64,000 bases of DNA. It comes from Synechococcus sp. PCC 7335 (GTDB lineage: Bacteria; Cyanobacteriota; Cyanobacteriia; Phormidesmidales; Phormidesmidaceae). A program made the position numbers and the translations under genes. The notes below the pieces were generated by a model. The model ran no database searches and had not been told where the DNA came from. It saw only the letters and a list, made by a program, of their open reading frames with translations. Where the stretch lies: positions 3,027,720 to 3,091,719 of the forward strand of contig NZ_DS989904.1 of NCBI RefSeq assembly GCF_000155595.1, read 5' to 3'. This document shows positions 994 to 55,355 of the stretch, one piece after another; the stretch's first letter is position 1, and each line of letters opens with the position of its first letter.

Positions 994-1548
994 TTGAGTA
1001 ACTCCACTTTGAGTAACTATCGTATTCGACTAGCTGAGGTAGAAGATCTTGCTCGTATCCCTGCGATTGAAGCGGCAGCGGCTAAGCAGTTTGAACCTTA
1101 TGTTTCACAGCTAGAAATCTCGGTAGATCACCTTTCTGGCCTTACGCCGATGACTTTTCTAAAGCGGGCGCAGCTAGAAAAACGGATATGGGTAGCGGTG
1201 TTAGAAAACCAGCCCGTAGGATTTATTGTTGCTAAGTTTTTGATAGAAAGCTGTTTTATTGTAGAGCTTGATGTGCTACCAGCCTATAGTCGACAGGGGA
1301 TTGGCTCCGCGCTAATTGAGATTTGCTGTGAGGGTGCGCGATCGCGAAATCACACCCAGCTTACGCTGACCACTTTCCGCTATGTCCCTTGGAATATTCC
1401 CTTTTATCAGCAGTGCGGTTTTGAGATTCTTCCCATAGAGCGCTGTTCTTCTGAACTAAGCGCTATCGTGCAGCACGAAGCCCGCTATGGCTTTGTCCAA
1501 AAGCATCGCGTCGTGATGCGTCGGATCCTGTCTAGAAAGCGAGAATGA
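994..1548 (+). CDS. GNAT family N-acetyltransferase
   Basis: The protein fits a GCN5-related N-acetyltransferase, which moves an acetyl group from acetyl-CoA to an amine. It begins with the usual first strand (YRIRLAEVEDL). It has the strand and acetyl-CoA loop ELDVLPAYSRQGIGSALIE (motif A, Q/RxxGxG/A) and a C-terminal strand with FYQQCGFE. The substrate cannot be told. The frame is open back to a TTG at 919 inside the dynamin-like gene. I chose the TTG at 994 because the domain starts just after it; TTG at 1009 is equally possible. No ATG exists in frame upstream of the domain and no clear ribosome binding site is visible. Confidence 0.75.
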   Translation: MSNSTLSNYRIRLAEVEDLARIPAIEAAAAKQFEPYVSQLEISVDHLSGLTPMTFLKRAQLEKRIWVAVLENQPVGFIVAKFLIESCFIVELDVLPAYSRQGIGSALIEICCEGARSRNHTQLTLTTFRYVPWNIPFYQQCGFEILPIERCSSELSAIVQHEARYGFVQKHRVVMRRILSRKRE

Positions 1549-1567
1549 TTGTGAAGGGAGAATCGCT

Positions 1568-2536
1568 GTGATCGATAGTGAAACTAAGCTAGATAGTGAA
1601 ACGATTAAACAACAGGCGATCGCACTAGGTTTTCACAAAGCGGGAATCGCTGCCATTCCAGCTGAGATGTCTGAGTCTGAGCAAACGGTCAAACGCTCAC
1701 TGCAATCTTGGCTATCTAGGGGTTATCAGGCAGATATGACCTGGATGAGCAACCCCAAACGGCAAAATGTACGCGCGGTCATGCCGGAGGCAAACGCTGT
1801 GATCTGTGTTGCCCTCAACTACTACACCGATCATCAAAGACCAATAGGCTCGCAATACGCCAAAATTTCTCGCTATGGCTGGGGAAGAGACTACCACCGG
1901 GTGCTAACTAAAAAGCTAAAGCAACTTGCTGCCTGGTTGTGCTCGCAAAGCAGCGGAGAAAATAAGATTGTAGCCCGCCCTTATGCGGATACAGGTCCGG
2001 TACAAGATAAGTTCTGGGCACAGCAGGCAGGCATTGGTTGGAATGCCAAGAACGGTAACGTAATTAGCCGCGAATACGGCTCCTGGATTTTCCTAGGTGA
2101 AATTATTACCAACTTAGAACTAACGCCTGACTTAGCGCATACTGCTCACTGCGGTAGCTGTACCCGCTGTATCACCGCTTGCCCCACTAAGGCTATTCGC
2201 GAGCCGGGAGTCGTCGATGCCAATCGCTGCATTGCCTATCATACAATCGAGAACCGGACTGAAAAGCTACCGGAGGCGATCGCCTCAAACCTACAGAACT
2301 GGGTCGCGGGCTGCGATATTTGCCAGGATGTCTGTCCTTGGAATCAGCGATTTGCTAAAGCTACAGATATCACAGAATTTCAGCCGTATCCTGGCAATGT
2401 CGCTCCGAGCCTTGCTGAGCTAGCAACTATAACGGAAGAGGAGTGGCAGCAGCGCTTTCCCGCCTCAGCATTGCGACGAATCAAACCACCTATGCTCAGA
2501 CGAAATGCCAGCGCAGCGATGGAATACACTAGTTGA
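1568..2536 (+). CDS. queG: Epoxyqueuosine reductase QueG
   Basis: QueG catalyses the last step of queuosine synthesis, reducing epoxyqueuosine to queuosine in the tRNA anticodon with cobalamin and two 4Fe-4S clusters. The sequence has the N-terminal domain with PYADTGPVQDK, which carries the proposed catalytic Asp, followed by GWNAKNGN. It then has two ferredoxin-like cysteine clusters (CGSCTRCITACP and CDICQDVCPWN). Length (322 residues) is within the family range, although the C-terminal helical repeat after PMLRRNA is short. The GTG start at 1568 follows a purine-rich GGGAG. Confidence 0.93.
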   Translation: MIDSETKLDSETIKQQAIALGFHKAGIAAIPAEMSESEQTVKRSLQSWLSRGYQADMTWMSNPKRQNVRAVMPEANAVICVALNYYTDHQRPIGSQYAKISRYGWGRDYHRVLTKKLKQLAAWLCSQSSGENKIVARPYADTGPVQDKFWAQQAGIGWNAKNGNVISREYGSWIFLGEIITNLELTPDLAHTAHCGSCTRCITACPTKAIREPGVVDANRCIAYHTIENRTEKLPEAIASNLQNWVAGCDICQDVCPWNQRFAKATDITEFQPYPGNVAPSLAELATITEEEWQQRFPASALRRIKPPMLRRNASAAMEYTS

Positions 2537-2561
2537 GCCGATTGCAGGATGATAGGAAAGA

Positions 2562-3401
2562 GTGGTTGAGAACAAAGATATAGATAAGAATGATATAGAT
2601 AAGGCAGATAAGAAAGTGATCGCTAAGCAGGTCACAGGAAAAGCAGCAGAACCTGAAATAGGTGGCTGGCGAAAGCTAGTGAATGAGAATATTCGGCTAG
2701 TGGCGATCGCGCTGATCATTGCAATTACCGTGCGTCTATTCATCGCCGAACCGCGCTTCATTCCATCGCCTTCTATGGTGCCGACGCTAGCGGTGGGCGA
2801 TCGCCTGCTTGTCGAGAAAGTCTCCTATCGGTTTCATGAGCCTCATAGAGGAGACATTGTTGTCTTTGAGCCACCGCCGCAGCTACAGGAATACGGCTAT
2901 ACAGCCAGCCAAGCGTTTATCAAACGAGTTGTTGGCTTACCGGGACAGACCGTAGAGATCACTCAAGGACGCGTTTACGTAGATGGCCAACCACTCACTG
3001 AAGACTACATTCTAGAAGCTCCTGCCTACGAGATGCCTGCTGTAGAAGTCCCGGCTGATAGCCTCTTTGTGATGGGCGATAACCGCAACGATAGCAACGA
3101 TTCGCACGTCTGGGGCTTCTTACCCATGCAGAACGTAATTGGCCGAGCCGCATTGCGATTCTGGCCCATAGATAAATTAGGAACTGCCAGTCTCAGCAAA
3201 GACTCAAAATTGAAGGACTTAGCATTTAAAACTCGAGATAGTGCAGCAGCTCAAAGGCCACCTTCGCGCTTAGCCGCAATCGATTCTGTAAATCGGCTAG
3301 ATCTGCGTAAGGTCCAACTTTTCGATAGTGAACGATCGCCCGGCCCAAAAATGCGTCGATACCAGGAACTGCTGTCAGCTCTAGCGCAGTTGCCGTATTG
3401 A
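2562..3401 (+). CDS. lepB: Signal peptidase I (with unusual C-terminal extension)
   Basis: Type I signal peptidase removes signal peptides from exported proteins at the membrane. One transmembrane helix (about 44-62) is followed by PSPSMVPT with the nucleophile Ser71, the general base Lys121 in FIKRVVGLPG, and box E MGDNRNDSNDS (171-181). The usual end of the family is near FWPIDKLG (residues 200-207). Here the frame runs on to residue 279, and residues 222-279 are antisense to the helix-hairpin-helix gene on the other strand. The tail has no family resemblance and probably reflects loss of an original stop. The GTG start at 2562 follows AGGAAAG. Confidence 0.9.
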   Translation: MVENKDIDKNDIDKADKKVIAKQVTGKAAEPEIGGWRKLVNENIRLVAIALIIAITVRLFIAEPRFIPSPSMVPTLAVGDRLLVEKVSYRFHEPHRGDIVVFEPPPQLQEYGYTASQAFIKRVVGLPGQTVEITQGRVYVDGQPLTEDYILEAPAYEMPAVEVPADSLFVMGDNRNDSNDSHVWGFLPMQNVIGRAALRFWPIDKLGTASLSKDSKLKDLAFKTRDSAAAQRPPSRLAAIDSVNRLDLRKVQLFDSERSPGPKMRRYQELLSALAQLPY

Positions 3402-3753
3402 CGTTTACCTTTTTGGGCTCTAGTGCTGTTTCCACATCGTAATAGCAAAATTGCAAGATCGCTTGCCAGGGTTGAATCTGCTGAACAGGTAAACCTAGGG
3501 TCGCAGCGATGTCTTCGAGGCAGGTGAAAAAAACTCTTTGACTGGTGAGGTTAGTGAGCGATCGCGCCTGATGAATCGATAGACCCGGTAGTCGTAGCCA
3601 ATCATCTACGGAGGCGGTATTGACATCGATCCGCACTCCCCAGCTAGCCGCCAACCTGATCTCATCAAAAGATTGAAAGCGATAATAGGGCTCTTGGCGA
3701 AGTCGTCGTTGAAGCGGGTGGCTTTTGCGAAGGAATTTATCAAGCAAGGTCAA
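3226..3753 (-). CDS. ComEA-like helix-hairpin-helix protein
   Basis: A small soluble protein with two helix-hairpin-helix units of the ComEA type. The first is IDVNTASVDDWLRLPGL (about residues 42-58); the second is VNVNTATALELTAVPGI with a following helix and PYADLADLQ (about 116-160). HhH units bind DNA backbone non-specifically. There is no signal peptide or membrane anchor, unlike true competence ComEA, so the role is unknown. The second unit lies in the 176-base overlap with the 3' end of lepB, which shows this strand is the conserved one there. The start is a TTG with no clear ribosome site. Confidence 0.72.
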   Translation of the reverse strand: MTLLDKFLRKSHPLQRRLRQEPYYRFQSFDEIRLAASWGVRIDVNTASVDDWLRLPGLSIHQARSLTNLTSQRVFFTCLEDIAATLGLPVQQIQPWQAILQFCYYDVETALEPKKVNVNTATALELTAVPGIDAFLGRAIVHYRKVGPYADLADLQNRLRLSAKVAFELLHYLEF

Positions 3754-3822
3754 AAGAGTGGGCTCTACACCGCTCTATCAGAAATTAATCACTTCAAAGG
3801 GTAAGCTGCTAGGGGTAAGCTG

Positions 3823-4251
3823 CTAGCCTATTTCCTCTAGAAGTTTGCGCCGCTTTTGTTCAAACTCATATTCTGTGATCAGCCCCTCTTGACGAAGCTG
3901 ATCGAGTTCTCTAACGGCGGTAGCTATCTGCTGTGTTTTTTGCGCTTTAATACTCCCAATCTTAGACTTTTGGATACTAGATTGGGTCAAAGCATCTGCC
4001 TGTGGTTCAGGCTGAGAAAGCAGCGCTCCTGCTTTTGGAAAACGCGACTCGAAACTCTGATCGCTTTGGCTTAGATACCAAATGCCCTCTATACAGCAGG
4101 CAACCGTAGGAATTCCGGTAGGCATAAGAACTAGATAGACAACACCCCAAAGATACTGCCCAAGATAAAACTTGTGTAGCCAAGTGAGCGGCAGCGGCGT
4201 AGGCAAACTACCAATAAATGCTAGTGCGATCGCAATCTTTCGATGTTGCAT
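3823..4251 (-). CDS. TM2-like membrane protein with C-terminal SHOCT motif
   Basis: Two hydrophobic segments (IAIALAFIGSLP and YLWGVVYLVLMPTGIP) are separated by HKFYLGQ, the short Gly-rich turn typical of TM2-type proteins. The C-terminus (AVRELDQLRQEGLITEYEFEQ, continuing KRRKLLEE) is a SHOCT motif, a short helical module common at the ends of small membrane proteins. I start at the ATG at 4251 because the conserved part begins there and AAAGG sits just upstream. The frame is open to 4350, but the extra 33 residues are not family-like. Function unknown. Confidence 0.72.
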   Translation of the reverse strand: MQHRKIAIALAFIGSLPTPLPLTWLHKFYLGQYLWGVVYLVLMPTGIPTVACCIEGIWYLSQSDQSFESRFPKAGALLSQPEPQADALTQSSIQKSKIGSIKAQKTQQIATAVRELDQLRQEGLITEYEFEQKRRKLLEEIG

Positions 4252-36814: not shown

Positions 36815-37204
36815 CTAAATCTGGGCCTGTAGCTGAGCTTGGATTTTTTGACAGTAGCTATCGATCTCTCGCACAAGCCCAAAAGCACTGAACGTTTTTC
36901 CGGCCCGGGCAGCGTGCTCTAGCTCAAAGGCGGTATTGGCTATGGCGCTAGCACCTACGTTCGCACTAGCCCCTCTAAGCGAGTGGGCAACACTTTCAAT
37001 CGTCTCAAGCTTTTTAGAAGCGATCGCACCTTCTAATAGCCGCAAGCTATTTCTCGCATCGTTTAGAAACATGGCTAGCAGCTCCGCTTCAAACTCTGCA
37101 TCACCACCAGCAAGCTGTTGGAGCTGCTGCCAGTCAAACTCAGTCGATAAAGTCTCAGTCGATAGAGTATCTGTATAATCTTGCCGTCCGTGAGCTTTCA
37201 ACAT
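36815..37204 (-). CDS. Histidine phosphotransfer (Hpt) domain protein
   Basis: A stand-alone Hpt domain: an acidic start, then FDWQQLQQLAGGDAEFEAELL, the phosphoacceptor helix SVAHSLRGASANVGA (His74) and a closing helix. Such proteins relay phosphoryl groups between hybrid kinases and response regulators. I start at ATG 37204, which has GAGG seven bases upstream. The frame stays open to 37534, but those 110 codons show no domain. No kinase is adjacent; potential partners lie 11-18 kb away. Confidence 0.83.
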   Translation of the reverse strand: MLKAHGRQDYTDTLSTETLSTEFDWQQLQQLAGGDAEFEAELLAMFLNDARNSLRLLEGAIASKKLETIESVAHSLRGASANVGASAIANTAFELEHAARAGKTFSAFGLVREIDSYCQKIQAQLQAQI

Positions 37205-37729
37205 AAAAAATCCTCTGCATAAATCGAGTGTGCCCGAACCGCTAGAACTATGTAGGGAATCAGGCAGGTAATTAGTGTAGGTATGAGAATCGCCTAAGCT
37301 GCCAGCAACTAACTGGAGGATATCTGCAAAAGACGTTGACCGGAAAAGTAACGAATTCGTCTGCGAGCGTCCTTCCATCTGTAGAGAGATTTCTCTTAGA
37401 GATTGACCTATTGCTGGTCTTCCATACACCATGCCACCAGCGACAGCAGTACTATCCAAATAATCCATCGAGGCCAGTAAATCCAGTCCCACAGTAGTCC
37501 TGGAAAAGCATCGACGAAAAGAGATAGCCACCACGCGATGACCGTTACTAGCATTAGAACAATTAAACTCATAGCATTGAACTCATCCTAGGTACAGCGT
37601 GAGGATACTAATAACTAGTGTGTTGTTCTGTAAAGTGTTTTGTGGAAAACAAGGTTTATTAATTGCTGACGGCTAAAAATACTTCTAGATGCCATAATTT
37701 CAATCCCCCTTGATCCAAATTACAGGTCC
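37205..37729. other. Divergent intergenic region between the Hpt gene and the TetR gene
   Basis: 525 bases, the near half of which is an open minus-strand extension of the Hpt frame with no recognisable domain. The rest is AT-rich upstream sequence of the TetR-type gene. No RNA gene recognised. Confidence 0.4.
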
Positions 37730-47698: not shown

Positions 47699-48187
47699 TT
47701 ATTCCCAGCCTAGTAACTCCTGAATTTGAATGGCGATCTTCTCTGGTTCAAACGGCTTCAATATGACGCCAACTCCTAGCCTCTCAAGCTGCTTACGCTC
47801 AACTTCTCTAGCTTGTGCCGTCAGAAAAACCACTGGGATATGCTGGGTTGTCGGCTGCTCTTTTAGCTGATGAAACAGCGTGATACCGTCAATATTCGGC
47901 ATCATCACATCTAGCAAGATCGCATCGGGCTGCTCGGTCTGCGCCATACTCATGCCTTCTTGACCAGAAGCGGCAACTAAAATAGTCCATTTGGCCGTCA
48001 GCTCTAGCGTCGCCTTAAGAATAATCCGAATCGCGGCTTCGTCATCAACAACTAAAAGCCGCCGATTTGTTCCAATATCTGAAGTCTGAATATCCGTAGC
48101 CTTCTCGTTTAAAGCTTGAGCGTTTGAGGATCGATCACTTGGTGAGCGCTTGCCTAGCGGCGGGGTCATGTCCACTTCGTTGTTCAC
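47699..48187 (-). CDS. Single-domain response regulator
   Basis: A Ser/Asn-rich tail of about 40 residues leads into a receiver domain: LLVVDDE, phosphoacceptor Asp93 in ILLDVMMPN, FLTAQ and ILKPFEPEK. There is no output domain. The start lies inside the end of the CBS histidine kinase gene (53-base overlap; MTPPLGK at 48169 is another start). Cognate pairing with that kinase is therefore likely. Confidence 0.88.
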   Translation of the reverse strand: MNNEVDMTPPLGKRSPSDRSSNAQALNEKATDIQTSDIGTNRRLLVVDDEAAIRIILKATLELTAKWTILVAASGQEGMSMAQTEQPDAILLDVMMPNIDGITLFHQLKEQPTTQHIPVVFLTAQAREVERKQLERLGVGVILKPFEPEKIAIQIQELLGWE

Positions 48188-49529
48188 ATCTAGTCGGTAG
48201 TGTAAAGTGGAAGCAGCTTCCTCTTCCTACCTGGCTTTCCACCCAAATTTTACCATTGTGCTGTTCAACAATGTTTCGACAAATACTCAATCCCAGACCT
48301 GTGCCCCCTAAACTTACCGATTCTGTTGGTATATTTCTAGAAGTTCTCGAAGCGTCTGTTTGAAAGTTTGAGTGAGTATAGCGACGATCACCTTGAACAA
48401 ATCTCTCAAATATTCTATGGCGTTGCTCTGGAGAAATTCCTATACCCTGATCGCATATGGTAAAGAGGGCATTAGCTTCGCTTTGTTGATGAGTATCGGA
48501 TTGTTGATGAGTATCGGATTGTTGATGAGTATCGGACTGGGCAGAGCTATCCACTAGCGTATCTTCTTCTATATACGACGTTAATAGGGTGACTTTGAGG
48601 TTGATAGTAGAGCCCGCCGTCGAAAATCGAATAGCGTTGTCGAGTAAATGTGTGAGCACCTGAATAAGGCGATCGCTATCAGCCACAATCTGAACGCCTT
48701 CATCTACGATGTCCAACCTAATTTCTTTCTTCTTGACTAAAGCGTCCGATAGCTCCGACACCTGCTGGGTCAGTTCTTGCGTATTGATTAACCGCTTTTG
48801 GAAAGAGGACATACGCGACTCTAGCCGTTCTAGCTCCAAAATGTCAGTGCAGAGCTTGACTAGTCTTTCAGAGTTCTCAGCGGCAACTTGCAACAGATAC
48901 TGTCCCTGAGCTGATTCGCTTGGAACAATTCCTTCGGATAAAAGCTTAATACCGCCATGAATCGATGTCAGAGGTGTTCGTAGTTCGTGGCTGACCATGG
49001 CAATGAACTCACCTTTTATCTTTTCAACTAGAAACTGTTCAGGTGTACTCCTAGTAACGTTTTCTGGGCTACCTTCCTCAATATCTTCCTTGGAAAGCTT
49101 TCGATCTAGTGAAATTAACGGCATATTGACAGGGTAAAAGGCTCTCTTTAAGCTGTGCTGTGTAATTGTTCCAATGACATCTTGCGTATTGTCAATAACG
49201 GGTAAGTGATATAAATGCTCCTGTTGCATCTTCTGAAAAACGACAAAGGCATCTTCGATCTCGGCGATACAAATGGTGACCTTTATGGGAACCATCACAG
49301 TTGAGATAGGTTCTTGGAAAAACGTTCGAGTTAGCGCTACTGAGCAAAGAAGGTTTCGGTCGGTGAAAGTGCCTATTGGACGCTGATCTTGAGTGATTAG
49401 AACGCAGCTATCTTGGGTATCGTGCATCTGTGCGAGCGCATCTTCAATAGGCGTCTCAGCCGAGACTATCCCAGAGATCGGAATCATAACGCGATCAATT
49501 AAAGCAGGCACCTGCGACTCCGTACGCAT
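48135..49529 (-). CDS. CBS-domain sensor histidine kinase
   Basis: An N-terminal CBS pair (DRVMIPISGIVSAETPIEDA; second module to about residue 130) replaces the usual sensor. The kinase core follows: MVSHELRTPLTSI with His181, N box LTHLLDNAIRF, G1 DQGIGIS and G2 GGTGLGLSI. It is probably cytosolic, responding to an adenosyl ligand. A repeat of SDTHQQ is inserted in the ATP domain, coded by three identical 18-base copies. It overlaps the receiver gene downstream. Confidence 0.9.
   Translation of the reverse strand: MRTESQVPALIDRVMIPISGIVSAETPIEDALAQMHDTQDSCVLITQDQRPIGTFTDRNLLCSVALTRTFFQEPISTVMVPIKVTICIAEIEDAFVVFQKMQQEHLYHLPVIDNTQDVIGTITQHSLKRAFYPVNMPLISLDRKLSKEDIEEGSPENVTRSTPEQFLVEKIKGEFIAMVSHELRTPLTSIHGGIKLLSEGIVPSESAQGQYLLQVAAENSERLVKLCTDILELERLESRMSSFQKRLINTQELTQQVSELSDALVKKKEIRLDIVDEGVQIVADSDRLIQVLTHLLDNAIRFSTAGSTINLKVTLLTSYIEEDTLVDSSAQSDTHQQSDTHQQSDTHQQSEANALFTICDQGIGISPEQRHRIFERFVQGDRRYTHSNFQTDASRTSRNIPTESVSLGGTGLGLSICRNIVEQHNGKIWVESQVGRGSCFHFTLPTRCEQRSGHDPAARQALTK
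48483..48536. repeat. Three perfect 18-base tandem copies inside the histidine kinase gene
   Basis: Copies at 48483-48500, 48501-48518 and 48519-48536 are identical. They encode the repeated SDTHQQ in the ATP-binding domain, in a loop before the G1 box. Confidence 0.92.
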
Positions 49530-49651: not shown

Positions 49652-52282
49652 CTATACGGCAAGCTTGACTCGATTACGACCCATCTTTTTAGCATCATGC
49701 AAAGCTCTATCAGCGGCTATGTATAGCGTTTGCAAGCTGTCGGCAGCTTGAGGAAAGACTGCTATACCAGCCGAGAAAGTAGCTATAATGTGACTTGTTT
49801 GGGCTGTTCCTGTTGAACTTTCTAGAAACAGATCTTTACATATATCAAGCGTTTCATTTTGCCAAACTTGAACAAGCTGGCGCAGCCGCTCAGTACCTTC
49901 TAACGCGTCTACCCCATAGAGCCCTATAACAAATTCTTCTCCTCCCCAACGAGCGACGACATCCTCGCTACGAAACGTCGAACGCAAGCATATGCCGAAT
50001 CGCCTAAGGACATAGTCGCCCACTAAATGGCCATATTGGTCATTGATCTGTTTGAAATGGTCTAAATCAATCAGCGCAAAACACAGTGGTTGCCGCTGGC
50101 GCCTCGCTAGTCTTAAAAGACGATTAAGTGATTGGGTCGATTTTCTTCGATTGTAGAGACCTGTTAGGCTATCAATTTCTGTTCTAAGTCGTCGATCTCG
50201 CGATCGCGCTAGCCAGCCTAGCACCCGTGCTACTAACTCGGGTGCCACAATGGGCTTACGAATGTAGTCATCAGCTCCTACTGAAAATACCTCTTGAATG
50301 GTTTTTTCATCGGTATGCGCTGACATAAACAGGATAGGCAGCTCATGCCAGCGAGGGTCACTGCGGACAACCTGACACAGATCGAACCCACTGAGCTGAG
50401 GCATTTTAATGTCAAGCAGTAGCAGGTCTGGCTCGACCTTTTCAAGGGTTTGCCAAAACTGGCTGGGATCGCAAAGGATCTCTATCTTAAAACCCCAAGG
50501 TTGAAGCAATTTCTGTAGCAAAGTCAGCATAGATGAGTCATCATCTACCACCAGTAGTGTAGCGGTCGGCGGAGTCCGTTTTTGCAGGATTCGCACTGCC
50601 GTTTCGAGAATTTCAGCGGGTGATGTAGGAGCCTGTAGCAATCTAGAGACACCTAACCTAGCTACCCTCACTCGATTTTCAAAGCTGGCTTCTGCGGCTA
50701 ATACAATTACCGGTAGCGATGATTGCGCAGCTCTTAGCTCAGCGAGCAACTTAAATTCATCACTATCGCTGGCCGGTAGCTCAGGAGGGCCATCAAAGTT
50801 GAATAGCGCAATATGAGGTTGAGATGCCGATCTATTCGCATCTCCGTTGACATCTTCACTTAGAAATATGAGATCTCTAGCCTGGCCGATACTATTCGCA
50901 ATACTGACTTTTACCTGATAGCGAACAGCAACTTCTTCAAGCGTTTGTATCCAACTGGGAACAGAATCCTTGTTTTGGGAAGGCCTATCTATTGAATCTA
51001 CAACTAGCAGCTCAAATGGCTGACCTGACGGTAGCTCGGTTAAAACAGAAGCAGAAACCACTGGTTCTGTCGAATGAGGTTCTGTTATGACAGGGATTGA
51101 GAGATGAGATGAGGTAGGCGATCGCGGTTGTCTAGAGGCTTGTCTAAGAGACTGAGAAATGAGTGCTATTCGCTCTTCCAACTGACGGAGCAATTCAGCG
51201 CTCAAATCATCGTGGGTACGCAGAGTGCTCTCTATCTCTCGCCACTGAATCGCAACATCTTTGAACCCAAAGCTGCCCAAAGATCCTGCTAAAGCGTGAG
51301 CCTCTGATAGGAGCTGCTGCCGGACGGTTAGGTCTGGCTGCCCTGGTTGCAATCTACGGAACACATCACTAACTTTTGTGATCCGCTGAAGATAACTATC
51401 GCTGACCCCCTGCCAAAGTGATGCTAGATCTAACTGCTGAGGTCGGTTGCTTTTATCTATAGGGTTCGTATCTGTTTGCTCTATCCCTATTGGACGCGTG
51501 TTTACTTGCTCTATAGCTGCTTGATTAGCTCCGCTATTGGGACGCGCAGCCGCCGTGCGAGAAGTCGATGCGTAGGTAGCTTTCGTTCTTGGAGTGGTAG
51601 CCTTCGGTGGAGCAGCCGTTCGTAGGCGATATCCTAGACCGTATACGGTAGAAATCACATCTGATAGTCCTACCTGCCTAAGCTTTTGGCGAAGTCCCTT
51701 GATGTGGGTACGCACCGAAGCAACCGTTGGTGTATCCTCGAACGGCCAGACTTTGTCTAGTAGACTATCTAAGCTAAAAATGCGCTCAGGATTACGTAAG
51801 AATAGTTCTAGCAGTGCATATTCTTTTGGAGTCAGAGCAATAGGAACGTCACCACAAGTTACCCTGCTACTGCACGGATCAAGCTGTAAGTCGCCCCACT
51901 GTAGAACTGGTGAAACAATACCTTCTGAACGCCGCAGTAGAGCGCGAATGCGAGCAAGTAGCTCTTCAAATTCGAACGGCTTGACGAGGTAATCATCTGC
52001 ACCCGCATCTAGTCCCGCAACTCTATCTGTACTAGCATCACGCGCCGTTAGCAGGATAATAGGGGTGCTATTGCCCTCATTTCTTAGCTGTTGACACAGC
52101 TGCATACCGTCTAGCTTGGGTAGCATCCAATCCATCAGGATCAGATCATAGGGGAAAACCTCAGCCATCCCTCGCCCTTCAATACCATCGGTTGCTAAAT
52201 CCATTACATAGTGGTGCGATAGCAGTAGCTGCTCTATGGCCCCTGCTAGAGCCCGATCATCTTCCACTAGTAAGAATTTCAT
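49652..52282 (-). CDS. Multidomain response regulator: receiver, wHTH, Hpt, pseudo-receiver, receiver, GGDEF
   Basis: An 876-residue signalling hub. Receiver 1 (1-120) has Asp51 in LILMDWMLP. An OmpR-type winged helix follows (125-222; LTPKEYALLELFLRNPERIFS). After a Thr/Ala/Gln linker comes an Hpt domain with SEAHALAGSLG (His329). A receiver-like segment without a clear Asp lies at 420-570, then receiver 2 with Asp624 in LLLDIKMPQ. The GGDEF domain is at 700-870, with DSLTGLYNRR, an intact GGEEF (780-784) and RxxD inhibitory site at 771-774. It should therefore bind DNA and make cyclic di-GMP. Confidence 0.93.
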   Translation of the reverse strand: MKFLLVEDDRALAGAIEQLLLSHHYVMDLATDGIEGRGMAEVFPYDLILMDWMLPKLDGMQLCQQLRNEGNSTPIILLTARDASTDRVAGLDAGADDYLVKPFEFEELLARIRALLRRSEGIVSPVLQWGDLQLDPCSSRVTCGDVPIALTPKEYALLELFLRNPERIFSLDSLLDKVWPFEDTPTVASVRTHIKGLRQKLRQVGLSDVISTVYGLGYRLRTAAPPKATTPRTKATYASTSRTAAARPNSGANQAAIEQVNTRPIGIEQTDTNPIDKSNRPQQLDLASLWQGVSDSYLQRITKVSDVFRRLQPGQPDLTVRQQLLSEAHALAGSLGSFGFKDVAIQWREIESTLRTHDDLSAELLRQLEERIALISQSLRQASRQPRSPTSSHLSIPVITEPHSTEPVVSASVLTELPSGQPFELLVVDSIDRPSQNKDSVPSWIQTLEEVAVRYQVKVSIANSIGQARDLIFLSEDVNGDANRSASQPHIALFNFDGPPELPASDSDEFKLLAELRAAQSSLPVIVLAAEASFENRVRVARLGVSRLLQAPTSPAEILETAVRILQKRTPPTATLLVVDDDSSMLTLLQKLLQPWGFKIEILCDPSQFWQTLEKVEPDLLLLDIKMPQLSGFDLCQVVRSDPRWHELPILFMSAHTDEKTIQEVFSVGADDYIRKPIVAPELVARVLGWLARSRDRRLRTEIDSLTGLYNRRKSTQSLNRLLRLARRQRQPLCFALIDLDHFKQINDQYGHLVGDYVLRRFGICLRSTFRSEDVVARWGGEEFVIGLYGVDALEGTERLRQLVQVWQNETLDICKDLFLESSTGTAQTSHIIATFSAGIAVFPQAADSLQTLYIAADRALHDAKKMGRNRVKLAV

Positions 52283-52901
52283 TTACCTTTGTTTCGTTGT
52301 TCCTTCGACCTTAAAGTTTCTTTGAATCTTCTAAGTTAGTAATTTCGTACTAATACATATGCCTGACTGCTCTGTATTAGCCTTGCACTAATTGCTTTGT
52401 ATGTACTTAACTTCTATTGACTTCTAATTTATGGGCTTCTATTTGTACTCACTTCTATTTGAGGCTCGCCTCGCCCTATAGAAATATTCTCCCAAGGTTA
52501 AGAAAATACGTCTATGGAGGAGGCAAGCTATAGGGATGTCTTAAAGGCATATTAAAACAGGGACTTCAGCAGAAGATTTTGTTCGTTCTTTTATAGTCCT
52601 AAGACTACGGTACAAATATGAGGAATTTATGGAGAGCGCCAATTACTTTTATGTAGTTTTCTCAATTCAAATATTCCTTTGACTATATGTTTCTTTTACC
52701 AAGAAATTGATCTTTACTCTCACAGGGTCTTCACAACTTTCGGTTACCTTGCTTGATACGAGCGTAGAGTAATCACGCAAGAGAATTTGACCGGGCAATG
52801 CGAACTATTGAGCAGCTTCTAAAGACATACCAACTGCCTATGTTGAACCGTATTGCTGCTGGAACGCTATGAATCAGTTACTTAGGGGTTTACTTAAGGA
52901 G
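52283..52901. other. 619-base intergenic region between the two large signalling genes
   Basis: AT-rich. It holds the promoter of the 876-residue regulator and the 3' flank of the 817-residue kinase. The motif cttctatt recurs several times around 52408-52455. A 24-codon plus-strand frame (52798-52872) has no support. No RNA gene recognised. Confidence 0.45.
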
Positions 52902-55355
52902 TTAACTGTTTAGATCGGTATCGGACGGATCGATTGTAGGTAAGTACACCTCAATCTGCGTACCCTGATTAACTTCGCTAGTGACGTGCATGAAGCCACC
53001 CGCACTTTTGACGATACCTAACGCAGTGGCTAGTCCTAAGCCAGTACCCTTATCAGGTGGTTTGGTCGTGAAGAAGGGATCGAATATGCGATCGCATACA
53101 TCTGCTGCTATCCCTACACCCGTATCACTAACTGTAACTAATACATAGTGATTAGCTGCCTTGTCTAGTTGCTGTAGATCTCGATATTGACTAATCGCTG
53201 TTTCGTCGAGCCAGACACTATCTACCGAAAGCGTTAAAACACCACCTTCAGGCATCGCATCACAGGCGTTGACGCATAGATTCATAAAGACCTGATGCAG
53301 ATGGGTTGCATCAGCTGAAACCAGCTTTCTTGTCTGATGTGGATCTGGGTGGGTAGACGTTTCCAATTGAATCTCGATGTTACTAGGAACACCCTGTCTC
53401 ACTACGTCTATTACCTCTTGCAGCAGCGCTAAGACGTCCACGGTGGCTCTATCACCAGAGCTGCCTTGGGCAAAGGTAAGAATTTGCTTGACCATGCTAG
53501 CGCCTCGTCTAGCACTTTGTTCTAGAATATCGATATGTTCATGAGTTGCTGCACTTGCGTCTTTTTGAGTGATACGTAGTAGCTGAGCGATACCTAAGAT
53601 AGGCGTCAAGATGTTATTCAAATCGTGAGCAATGCCGCTGGCTAGCCGTCCCAAGCTTTCTAATCGCTGGGCCCGATAGAACTGGGCTTCCAGCTGTTTT
53701 TTCTCAGTAATATCTGTATTCACCTCTAAGAAAGACTGCGGACGTCCTGCCCTATCTCTGACCAAGGTCCATCGGCTGGCAACCAGTATCTCTCTACCAG
53801 CTTTGGTGGTTTGAGTCATTTCTCCCTGCCAAAAGCCTTGCTCTAGCGTAGTATTAATAATTTTGCTGAAGTCTTGTTGGCTTCTTTTCTTTAATAGTTG
53901 ATGGGCTTTCTTGCCAATAGCTTCTTCCTTGCTCCAACCGTAGAGTCTTTCGGCTCCTTGGCTCCACAGCACAATTTGGCCAGTAAGATCGCGCACGAAG
54001 ATGGCATCGGTTGCAATGTCAATTAGCGCCGCCTGTTCGCGAGTTTTGCGGTACAGCTCCGCCTGGCTAATGGCGATTCCCACCTGAGTAGCAACCTGCT
54101 TTAATAGCTGAGTGCTTTCTACTTCCCATTGTCTTGGCTGGCGGCAGTGGTGAGCAATCAACAATCCCCACAGAACCGAACCCTGTAAAATTGGCACTAC
54201 CAGATTCGCCTGGACCTGAAAGCTGCTTAAAAGCTCTACATGACAGGGGTTAAGATCTTCTGTGTTTATGTCAGCGATCGCGCTTACTCTGCCTTCTTTG
54301 AAGCTTTGGGTGTAAAGCTCATCAAAGCAAGAATCTTCAAGCTGCATTCCTAATGTTTTGATCCACCCAGCTGCAACAGACTCAGCTTCGACAACGCCTT
54401 GCCAGTTAGGTAAGAATCGAAAGATAATCACCCGATCTGTTTGCAGCAGACGCCGAACTTGATCGACAGCGGTATGCAAAATTTGATCTAGATCAAGTGT
54501 TTGACGGATAGAATCAGTGATTCTGGTAATTAAACGCTCTCGCTCTAGCTGTCGCCTAAGCTTAGTGGCTGCTTGATGACGCTCGCTGACATCTTTCATA
54601 AAGCAATAGTGCCCGGTAAACCGCCGCTGTTCGTCGTAGATCGCGACCATCACTAGTGACTTATCGAAGCAAGTGCCATCTTTTTTTAACCCTTTGATCT
54701 CTAGCTCCACTTTTCCTCGGCTGAGCATCTGCTCATAGGCAGCGATCGCCTGGCTAACATCATCTGGATGAACAGTCACTTGCCAGCTTTTTCCAATCAT
54801 CTCCAACGGTGTACAGCCCACCATCTGCGCATAGGCATCATTCACAAAAAGATACTGTCCTTGTGAATCTAGGCGAGAAATGCCTTCAACTGCGTAGCTC
54901 AAAGCCGCACTCATCTCTGGCAGCTGAGCTTTAGGTCTACCGTTTGATGCGACAGAGGTTATGACAGAGCGCTCAGCTAGCTCCTTCTTGTGTAGCAAAA
55001 ATGTAATGCGCGCAATCAATGCCTGTGGGTGAATGGGTTGCGCGCGCGGCTTGGCAAAATAATCGTCAGCCTCTGCCTCGATAGCAATCGAACTAAGCTC
55101 GATATGCTCATCTACCTCGATGAGTAGCAACACCGTTGGTCGCTCACCCCTAGTACACAACCGCTGGCACAGACTAAGTGCGTCTTGGTGCGCAATTGAA
55201 TGTCCTATCACTATTAGATCGTGCTTAGAAACTGTTGCGCTCTGCCATGCCAACTCTCCATTTGCCACTGTTTCTATTGTATGACCGCAGCAATCAGACC
55301 AGTCCTGAAGGAGATCCACAACTTCTGTGCCTGTCTCAACGATCATAATCTTCAT
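52902..55355 (-). CDS. Hybrid sensor histidine kinase with PAS-GAF-PAS and candidate DXCF cyanobacteriochrome GAF
   Basis: Residues 1-125 form a degenerate receiver: the Asp position is Gly51 (DLIVIGHS) though Lys102 remains. PAS 1 covers 148-258 and PAS 2 445-555. The GAF domain (about 280-432) contains EDSCFDE with Cys343 and [20 protein letters not shown] with Cys371. This matches the DXCF and CH cysteines of bilin-binding cyanobacteriochromes, 28 residues apart. The kinase core has HDLNN (His577), [21 protein letters not shown] and GTGLGLA. No membrane segment. The C-terminus lacks a receiver. It may signal to the neighbouring regulators. Confidence 0.92.

Follow-up and report, generated by a model that had tools for sequence, protein, structure and literature searches.

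The window, by which we mean the whole 64,000-nucleotide stretch of Synechococcus sp. PCC 7335 DNA that was analyzed, contains a gene for a real six-module cyanobacterial signalling protein of 876 residues in which a DNA-binding regulator, an Hpt domain, two further receivers and a GGDEF domain follow one another on a single chain. The protein probably binds DNA and makes cyclic di-GMP (c-di-GMP). Many cyanobacteria have this architecture and a fusion of this type is already on record, yet the family is little studied. Comparison of its members indicates that the phosphorelay part is nearly constant whereas the cyclase was altered or lost its canonical residues several times. The best explanation, and to us a fairly probable one, is that the response regulator of this family is both the end point and the branch point of a phosphorelay and would set transcription as well as c-di-GMP.

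Domain architecture of the protein

The frame runs from 52282 to 49652, starts with ATG and has no internal stops (Table 1). When profile HMMs were run against the protein, both the winged helix and the Hpt domain were found by Pfam above cut-off. Trans_reg_C matched residues 147-220 with 75.8 bits (cut-off 26.2), GGDEF matched residues 703-871 with 132.7 bits (cut-off 23.8), and Hpt matched residues 320-376 with 28.1 bits (cut-off 24.6), which makes it the weakest of the modules above cut-off. Response_reg matched three stretches at E up to 1 and two at E up to 0.001, the best being residues 4-113. An earlier note, written from the sequence alone, had listed a receiver, a winged helix, an Hpt domain with His329, a receiver with Asp624 and a GGDEF domain with GGEEF and RxxD, and each of these is present. 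Its claim that DNA-binding and cyclase modules share one chain is thereby borne out.

Table 1. Coordinates in the window of the family gene, its modules and its neighbours
Feature	Position	Strand	Basis
Whole gene, 876 aa, REC1-wHTH-Hpt-REC2(degenerate)-REC3-GGDEF	49652..52282	-	Frame, Pfam, alignment of relatives
REC1, residues 1-118; D8, D9, acceptor D51, T79 and K101 intact	51929..52282	-	Pfam; D51 in 43/46 aligned relatives
Winged helix (Trans_reg_C), residues 147-220	51623..51844	-	Pfam; RppA model of NCBIfam
Hpt, residues 286-382; His329 codon 51296-51298	51137..51427	-	Pfam; AF2 (4 predicted helices); His in 46/46
REC2, residues 420-570; predicted receiver fold, pseudo-receiver	50573..51025	-	Alignment, Pfam score, AF2, Foldseek
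REC3, residues 573-695; D580, D581, acceptor D624 and K676 intact	50198..50566	-	Pfam; D624 in 44/46
Predicted long helix, residues 680-702, REC3-to-GGDEF connector	50177..50245	-	AF2, low overall confidence, pTM 0.31
GGDEF domain, residues 703-871; GGEEF (780-784) at 49931-49945, RxxD (771-774) at 49961-49972	49670..50176	-	Pfam; PDB matches; residues
Upstream histidine kinase, 817 aa: receiver-like N-terminus, PAS, GAF, PAS, HisKA, HATPase	52902..55355	-	Pfam; same neighbour in L009
Downstream histidine kinase with two CBS stretches, 464 aa	48135..49529	-	Pfam; same neighbour in L009
Stand-alone receiver, 162 aa; LLDVMMP at the acceptor site (by eye); may carry phosphate to Hpt	47699..48187	-	Pfam; family loci vs controls

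By sequence comparison, all the acceptor and catalytic residues checked were intact except in REC2. The intact REC1 followed by a winged helix makes the N-terminal part an OmpR/PhoB response regulator, and the Hpt domain combines its Pfam match with an acceptor His in a predicted helical bundle. The GGDEF domain has the residues of a diguanylate cyclase, namely, GG[DE]EF and a metal-binding Asp, which we take from knowledge of PleD to be Asp739, and its PDB matches include PleD, WspR and DgcZ. In PleD and WspR a long helix joins the receiver to the GGDEF domain, and a connector of this kind was predicted here, in a full-length AF2 model that has a pTM of 0.31 and does not resolve the packing of the domains. 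All modules of what we group as the cyanobacterial REC-wHTH-Hpt-REC-(REC)-GGDEF family thus lie in order in one frame. The same single frame is found in Cf. Phormidesmis LEGE 11477 (L009, 72% identity) and in Nostoc paludosum and Anabaena azotica (L010 and L011, 47% identity). Because single frames recur in other assemblies, the 876-aa frame does not join two separate genes, a possibility that the earlier note had left standing.

The degenerate receiver REC2

The segment between the Hpt domain and REC3 had been described as receiver-like, and this holds for its predicted fold but not for its phosphorylation site. REC2 (about residues 420-570) scored 19.5 bits against Response_reg, below the cut-off of 30.2, and it has Asn495 in place of the acceptor Asp and Ala551 in place of the conserved Lys. 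AF2 predicted for residues 420-570 the five-fold beta-alpha fold of a receiver, the best model having a mean pLDDT of 77.8; the input was four sequences, and three of the five models were at 77-78 and two at 49-54. The best PDB matches of this model in Foldseek were receivers, including RpaA, PmrA and CheY (best E 3.4e-6; TM up to 0.80 by target and 0.59-0.67 by query). REC2 of this protein is, on its sequence and modelled fold, a pseudo-receiver. Both Asp and Lys are kept in the REC2 of the Nostoc and Anabaena proteins and in 24 of 46 relatives, three of the 46 being without letters at these positions. According to the available text of a published paper, receivers without Asp are frequent in cyanobacteria and enriched beside GGDEF domains (PMC4395418).

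Distribution of the family

The earlier note had called the architecture unusual, which was not borne out within cyanobacteria. A search with a four-row alignment, three members of which have canonical cyclase residues so that it may favour canonical proteins, gave matches at E <= 1e-150 in 108 of the 388 genomes of the class. At least 61 of the 138 matches listed were full-length, that is, from the first 60 positions of the model to beyond the 800th, and these came from at least 57 of the 388 genomes. A further 67 matches, in 57 genomes, ended at positions 590-705, before the GGDEF domain, and 10 of the 138 were other partial matches. The 57 of 388 and the companion counts over these genomes are lower bounds because scoring was limited to the top two candidates of each genome. 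A phylum search with the single protein at E <= 1e-120 gave matches in 2 of 291 genomes, one of which is the window's own. This threshold is too stringent for a protein with several domains and gaps, and therefore the alignment search was used instead; the 57 of 388 thus rests on a laxer query. In the window's own taxonomic family, 57 of 57 genomes had a match at E <= 1e-60, partial matches counted.

At least five paralogues are present in the genome that the window comes from. One of them (L003) is REC-wHTH-Hpt-REC-GGDEF, another (L002) has receivers, Hpt and GGDEF and is without the winged helix, and three (L004, L005 and L006) are without GGDEF. Another member, at 1090-3891 (-) of L096, is 933 aa long and has an additional receiver beyond the GGDEF domain. 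With our own domain models, a winged helix and a GGDEF domain in one frame of at least 250 aa were found in none of the 77 loci L012-L088; these are nearly all non-cyanobacterial (L015 is Planktothrix) and are not a survey because they were chosen by similarity to the 876-aa protein. Three of them, L061, L063 and L071, passed the coverage cut as full-length non-cyanobacterial relatives and were rejected, the matched parts being receivers and GGDEF without a winged helix.

For residue comparisons, the relatives were aligned as a set of 46 rows. L001 and L008 (copies), L090 (identical to L009) and the three rejected loci were dropped, while the atypical L002 and L003, L110 and L112 (the last three without REC2 letters) were retained, and the set contains near-copies (L100 and L114; L133, L136 and L137). 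Pfam found Response_reg, Hpt and GGDEF in all 46 relatives and Trans_reg_C in 45.

Genes around the family gene

The gene order around the family gene in L009 is the same as in the window, and a receiver of the same similarity cluster was found in 19 of 24 family loci. Twenty of the 61 full-length matches, picked for long contigs, were compared with control stretches of the same length, one taken arbitrarily from each of these 20 genomes, kinases and receivers being called with small models of our own and not with Pfam. A stand-alone receiver gene was present in 16/20 family loci and 0/20 control stretches (Fisher 8e-8), and a kinase gene in 16/20 and 7/20 (p 0.005), respectively. No stand-alone receiver was found in the remaining 4/20 family loci, within about 16 kb each. 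The receiver at 47699-48187 near the window gene is an associated and not a defining trait of the family.

These neighbours bear on the claim that the protein carries its own relay. The Hpt domain and two intact receivers are indeed in the chain, but a kinase is not, and the source of phosphate is likely external, namely, the neighbouring kinases and the stand-alone receiver gene.

Several other features of these loci were observed. The receiver-like N-terminal domain of the kinase at 52902-55355 has VIGHS and no Asp at the acceptor position (by eye) and scored 29.8 against the cut-off of 30.2. In the CBS kinase at 48135-49529 (-) a QQSDTH stretch is repeated within the ATPase region. A stand-alone Hpt-like protein of 239 aa with the motif VAHSLRGASANVGA (by eye) is encoded at 36815-37534 (-) and is a possible further relay partner. 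In L010 (8549-10261) and L011 (8669-10381) a KaiC-like ATPase gene and a PAS kinase gene come after the family gene (Pfam on L010).

The hexamer TAGAAG (gene strand) occurs six times in the 619 bp upstream of the gene, and four copies, read as CTTCTA in the window, lie within 50 bp at 52409-52461. TAGAAG itself reached that count in 0/5000 simulated sequences and any hexamer did so in 82/1000. A gapped pattern built from these repeats, and written post hoc, has two matches in the window, both here, where 0.01 is expected. Neither TAGAAG nor its complement is present in the 600 bp upstream of L009, L091, L092, L094, L010 or L011. The cluster was considered as an operator and left as unproven, being absent upstream of L009 and marginal against the any-hexamer control.

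Family relatives were also found in eight cyanobacterial plasmid records. Among the seven examined, a heavy-metal or cation ATPase gene lies near the family gene in five and not in the other two; two of the five are near-identical plasmids of Leptolyngbya boryana. The five (L180, L181, L182, L185 and L186) are from Chroococcidiopsis, Leptolyngbya and Nostoc, and some have YHS-domain or multicopper oxidase genes as well. Their four distinct sequences form one clade apart from the window protein, and none of the four has canonical GG[DE]EF. By eye, there is no metal-export gene among the frames around the window gene. Because the ATPase-linked members are a clade of their own and no such gene is nearby, control of the window protein by heavy metals was rejected.

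Conserved relay residues and a proposed route

The acceptor His of the Hpt domain is present in 58/58 GGDEF-bearing members, and the acceptor Asp of REC1 and that of REC3 in 55/58 each; these 58 are mostly best-scoring matches together with six plasmid proteins and are not a random sample. By established phosphorelay logic, an Hpt domain without a kinase part takes its phosphate from a receiver, and the conserved stand-alone receiver would therefore be the natural donor. The route that we propose is as follows. The CBS kinase, the PAS-GAF kinase or both would phosphorylate the stand-alone receiver (47699-48187), which would hand the phosphate to His329 of the Hpt domain. His329 would in turn pass the phosphate to two receivers: at Asp51 of REC1 it would switch the RppA-like winged helix, and at Asp624 of REC3 the GGDEF domain. 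The c-di-GMP made would restrain its own synthesis at the RxxD site, and REC2 would be a spacer or a docking surface. Sequence and models show the modules, the acceptor and catalytic residues and the conserved neighbours; from these we infer the relay route, the order of phosphotransfer, the DNA binding, the cyclase activity and the feedback. The Pfam match of the Hpt domain is weak, although 46 of 46 relatives match. Either flanking kinase, both or neither may be the phosphate donor, and REC1 may be phosphorylated directly by a kinase.

A more elaborate version, which we put forward tentatively, makes the Hpt domain an in-chain branch point at which His329, loaded by a dedicated stand-alone receiver, splits the phosphate between REC1 and REC3, while c-di-GMP or GTP bound to the GGDEF domain feeds back on DNA binding by that very molecule and relatives that have lost catalysis keep the domain as a sensor. 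If this is true, one molecule would couple both outputs, gene expression through REC1 and c-di-GMP through REC3.

It is rather unlikely that REC1 and the winged helix are instead an ordinary OmpR-type regulator that a kinase phosphorylates directly, with the Hpt domain, REC2 and REC3 as a separate arm that drives the GGDEF domain or drains phosphate. Such an arrangement is consistent with the score of this part above the RppA cut-off, with the kinase gene in 16/20 family loci and with a gene annotated rppB (kinase) that directly adjoins one plasmid member. However, the acceptor His of the Hpt domain is kept even in members with a non-canonical GGDEF domain, which argues that the Hpt domain is not merely the servant of the cyclase, and the stand-alone receiver is conserved near the gene too.

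The cyclase across the family

Canonical GG[DE]EF together with Asp739 was found in 24 of the 58 GGDEF-bearing members. The R..D motif is kept by all 24 of these and by 11 of the other 34, and its presence in all canonical members is expected if they are real cyclases under feedback. L009, which is closest to the window protein, reads AGEEF and is without R..D. Mapped on a tree of the N-terminal modules, the canonical state changed at least nine times, six of these changes being forced by starred branches. A second tree comprised 69 members that either have or lack GGDEF, and on it the presence of the domain changed at least six times, four of them forced; both trees were quick ones with SH-aLRT support only. 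It is this record, set against the near-invariant relay residues, that points to a fixed relay and to a cyclase that decayed or changed repeatedly. Since 34 of the 58 are without the canonical residues, the cyclase is not what selection maintains in the family as a whole.

The same counts raise the question whether the GGDEF domain is mainly a ligand-sensing or dimerizing part that tunes DNA binding, any cyclase activity of the window protein being incidental. The scattered canonical state, the AGEEF of the closest relative and the canonical GG[DE]EF in only one of six plasmid members all fit this idea. We nevertheless regard it as improbable because the window protein has Asp739, GGEEF and RxxD together, and because every canonical member keeps R..D. 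Finally, an assembly or frame error that joined two genes is next to impossible, as we found nothing in its support. Single frames with this order of modules in L009, L010 and L011, which come from other assemblies, refute it, and the 61 or more full-length matches in at least 57 genomes, 3 of the 61 having an in-frame stop, also speak against it.

Comparison with known systems

Going by titles and the beginnings of abstracts, no paper on the window protein, and no experiment on it or mechanism for it, was found. A 2013 mBio survey of cyanobacterial c-di-GMP domains may list the architecture.

Like RppA and other OmpR/PhoB regulators, the protein begins with a receiver and a winged helix, and residues 1-221 scored 309.1 against the cut-off of 250 of the RppA model (NF041734). 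That model has 229 positions, whereas the window protein has about 650 extra residues that make up the Hpt domain, two receivers and the GGDEF domain; only its N-terminal module thus appears RppA-like. The C-terminal part resembles the REC-REC-GGDEF order of PleD, with two receivers ahead of a GGDEF domain that has GGEEF and RxxD, but here a DNA-binding regulator and an Hpt domain are placed before the receivers. In PleD the second receiver is the degenerate one, whereas in the window protein it is the first of the two that precede the GGDEF domain. The protein scored 276.8 bits against the PleD equivalog model (NF007135), below the cut-off of 474; it is not PleD, though its C-terminus may work in a PleD-like way.

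The fusion type is on record in two places. The available text of the 2007 cTFbase paper states that putative transcription factors of freshwater and soil cyanobacteria, from several families including OmpR, are fused in uncommon combinations to signalling domains including Hpt and GGDEF (PMC1858693); that text does not assign domains family by family, and gives neither a mechanism nor the name of the window gene. BAU15774.1 of Leptolyngbya sp. NIES-3755 (AP017309), a plasmid member, is annotated as 'two-component transcriptional regulator/diguanylate cyclase' and has, by our own domain models, the same order of modules. It differs in belonging to a different clade, in lying beside heavy-metal ATPase genes and in having the motif EGDEF.

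A documented parallel is the CdgK-CdgS pair of Anabaena PCC 7120. In the available text, the kinase CdgK hands phosphate to a REC2-Hpt part of its own chain, and full cyclase activity of CdgS (REC-GGDEF) depends on Asp60 (PMC9927289). As in the route proposed here, a kinase, a receiver and an Hpt domain are followed by a receiver that controls a GGDEF domain; the difference is that in that pair the Hpt domain is within the kinase and CdgS is a receiver and GGDEF without a DNA-binding module (PMC8682488, available text). The window architecture is not described in the available text of PMC8682488, PMC13075795, PMC10607523, PMC10581220, PMC9953108 or PMC4395418.

Significance for cyanobacterial signalling

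As far as the sequences indicate, the relay of this family is fixed, its cyclase is expendable and a receiver accompanies it, a combination that may surprise specialists. Members with a canonical cyclase, a non-canonical one or none share a constant relay core, and in this natural series the role of a GGDEF domain after the loss of catalysis could be tested. Some of the numerous stand-alone receivers in cyanobacteria may, on this view, have a dedicated task. Should the proposed relay operate, many cyanobacteria would set transcription and the synthesis of a second messenger jointly through one protein.
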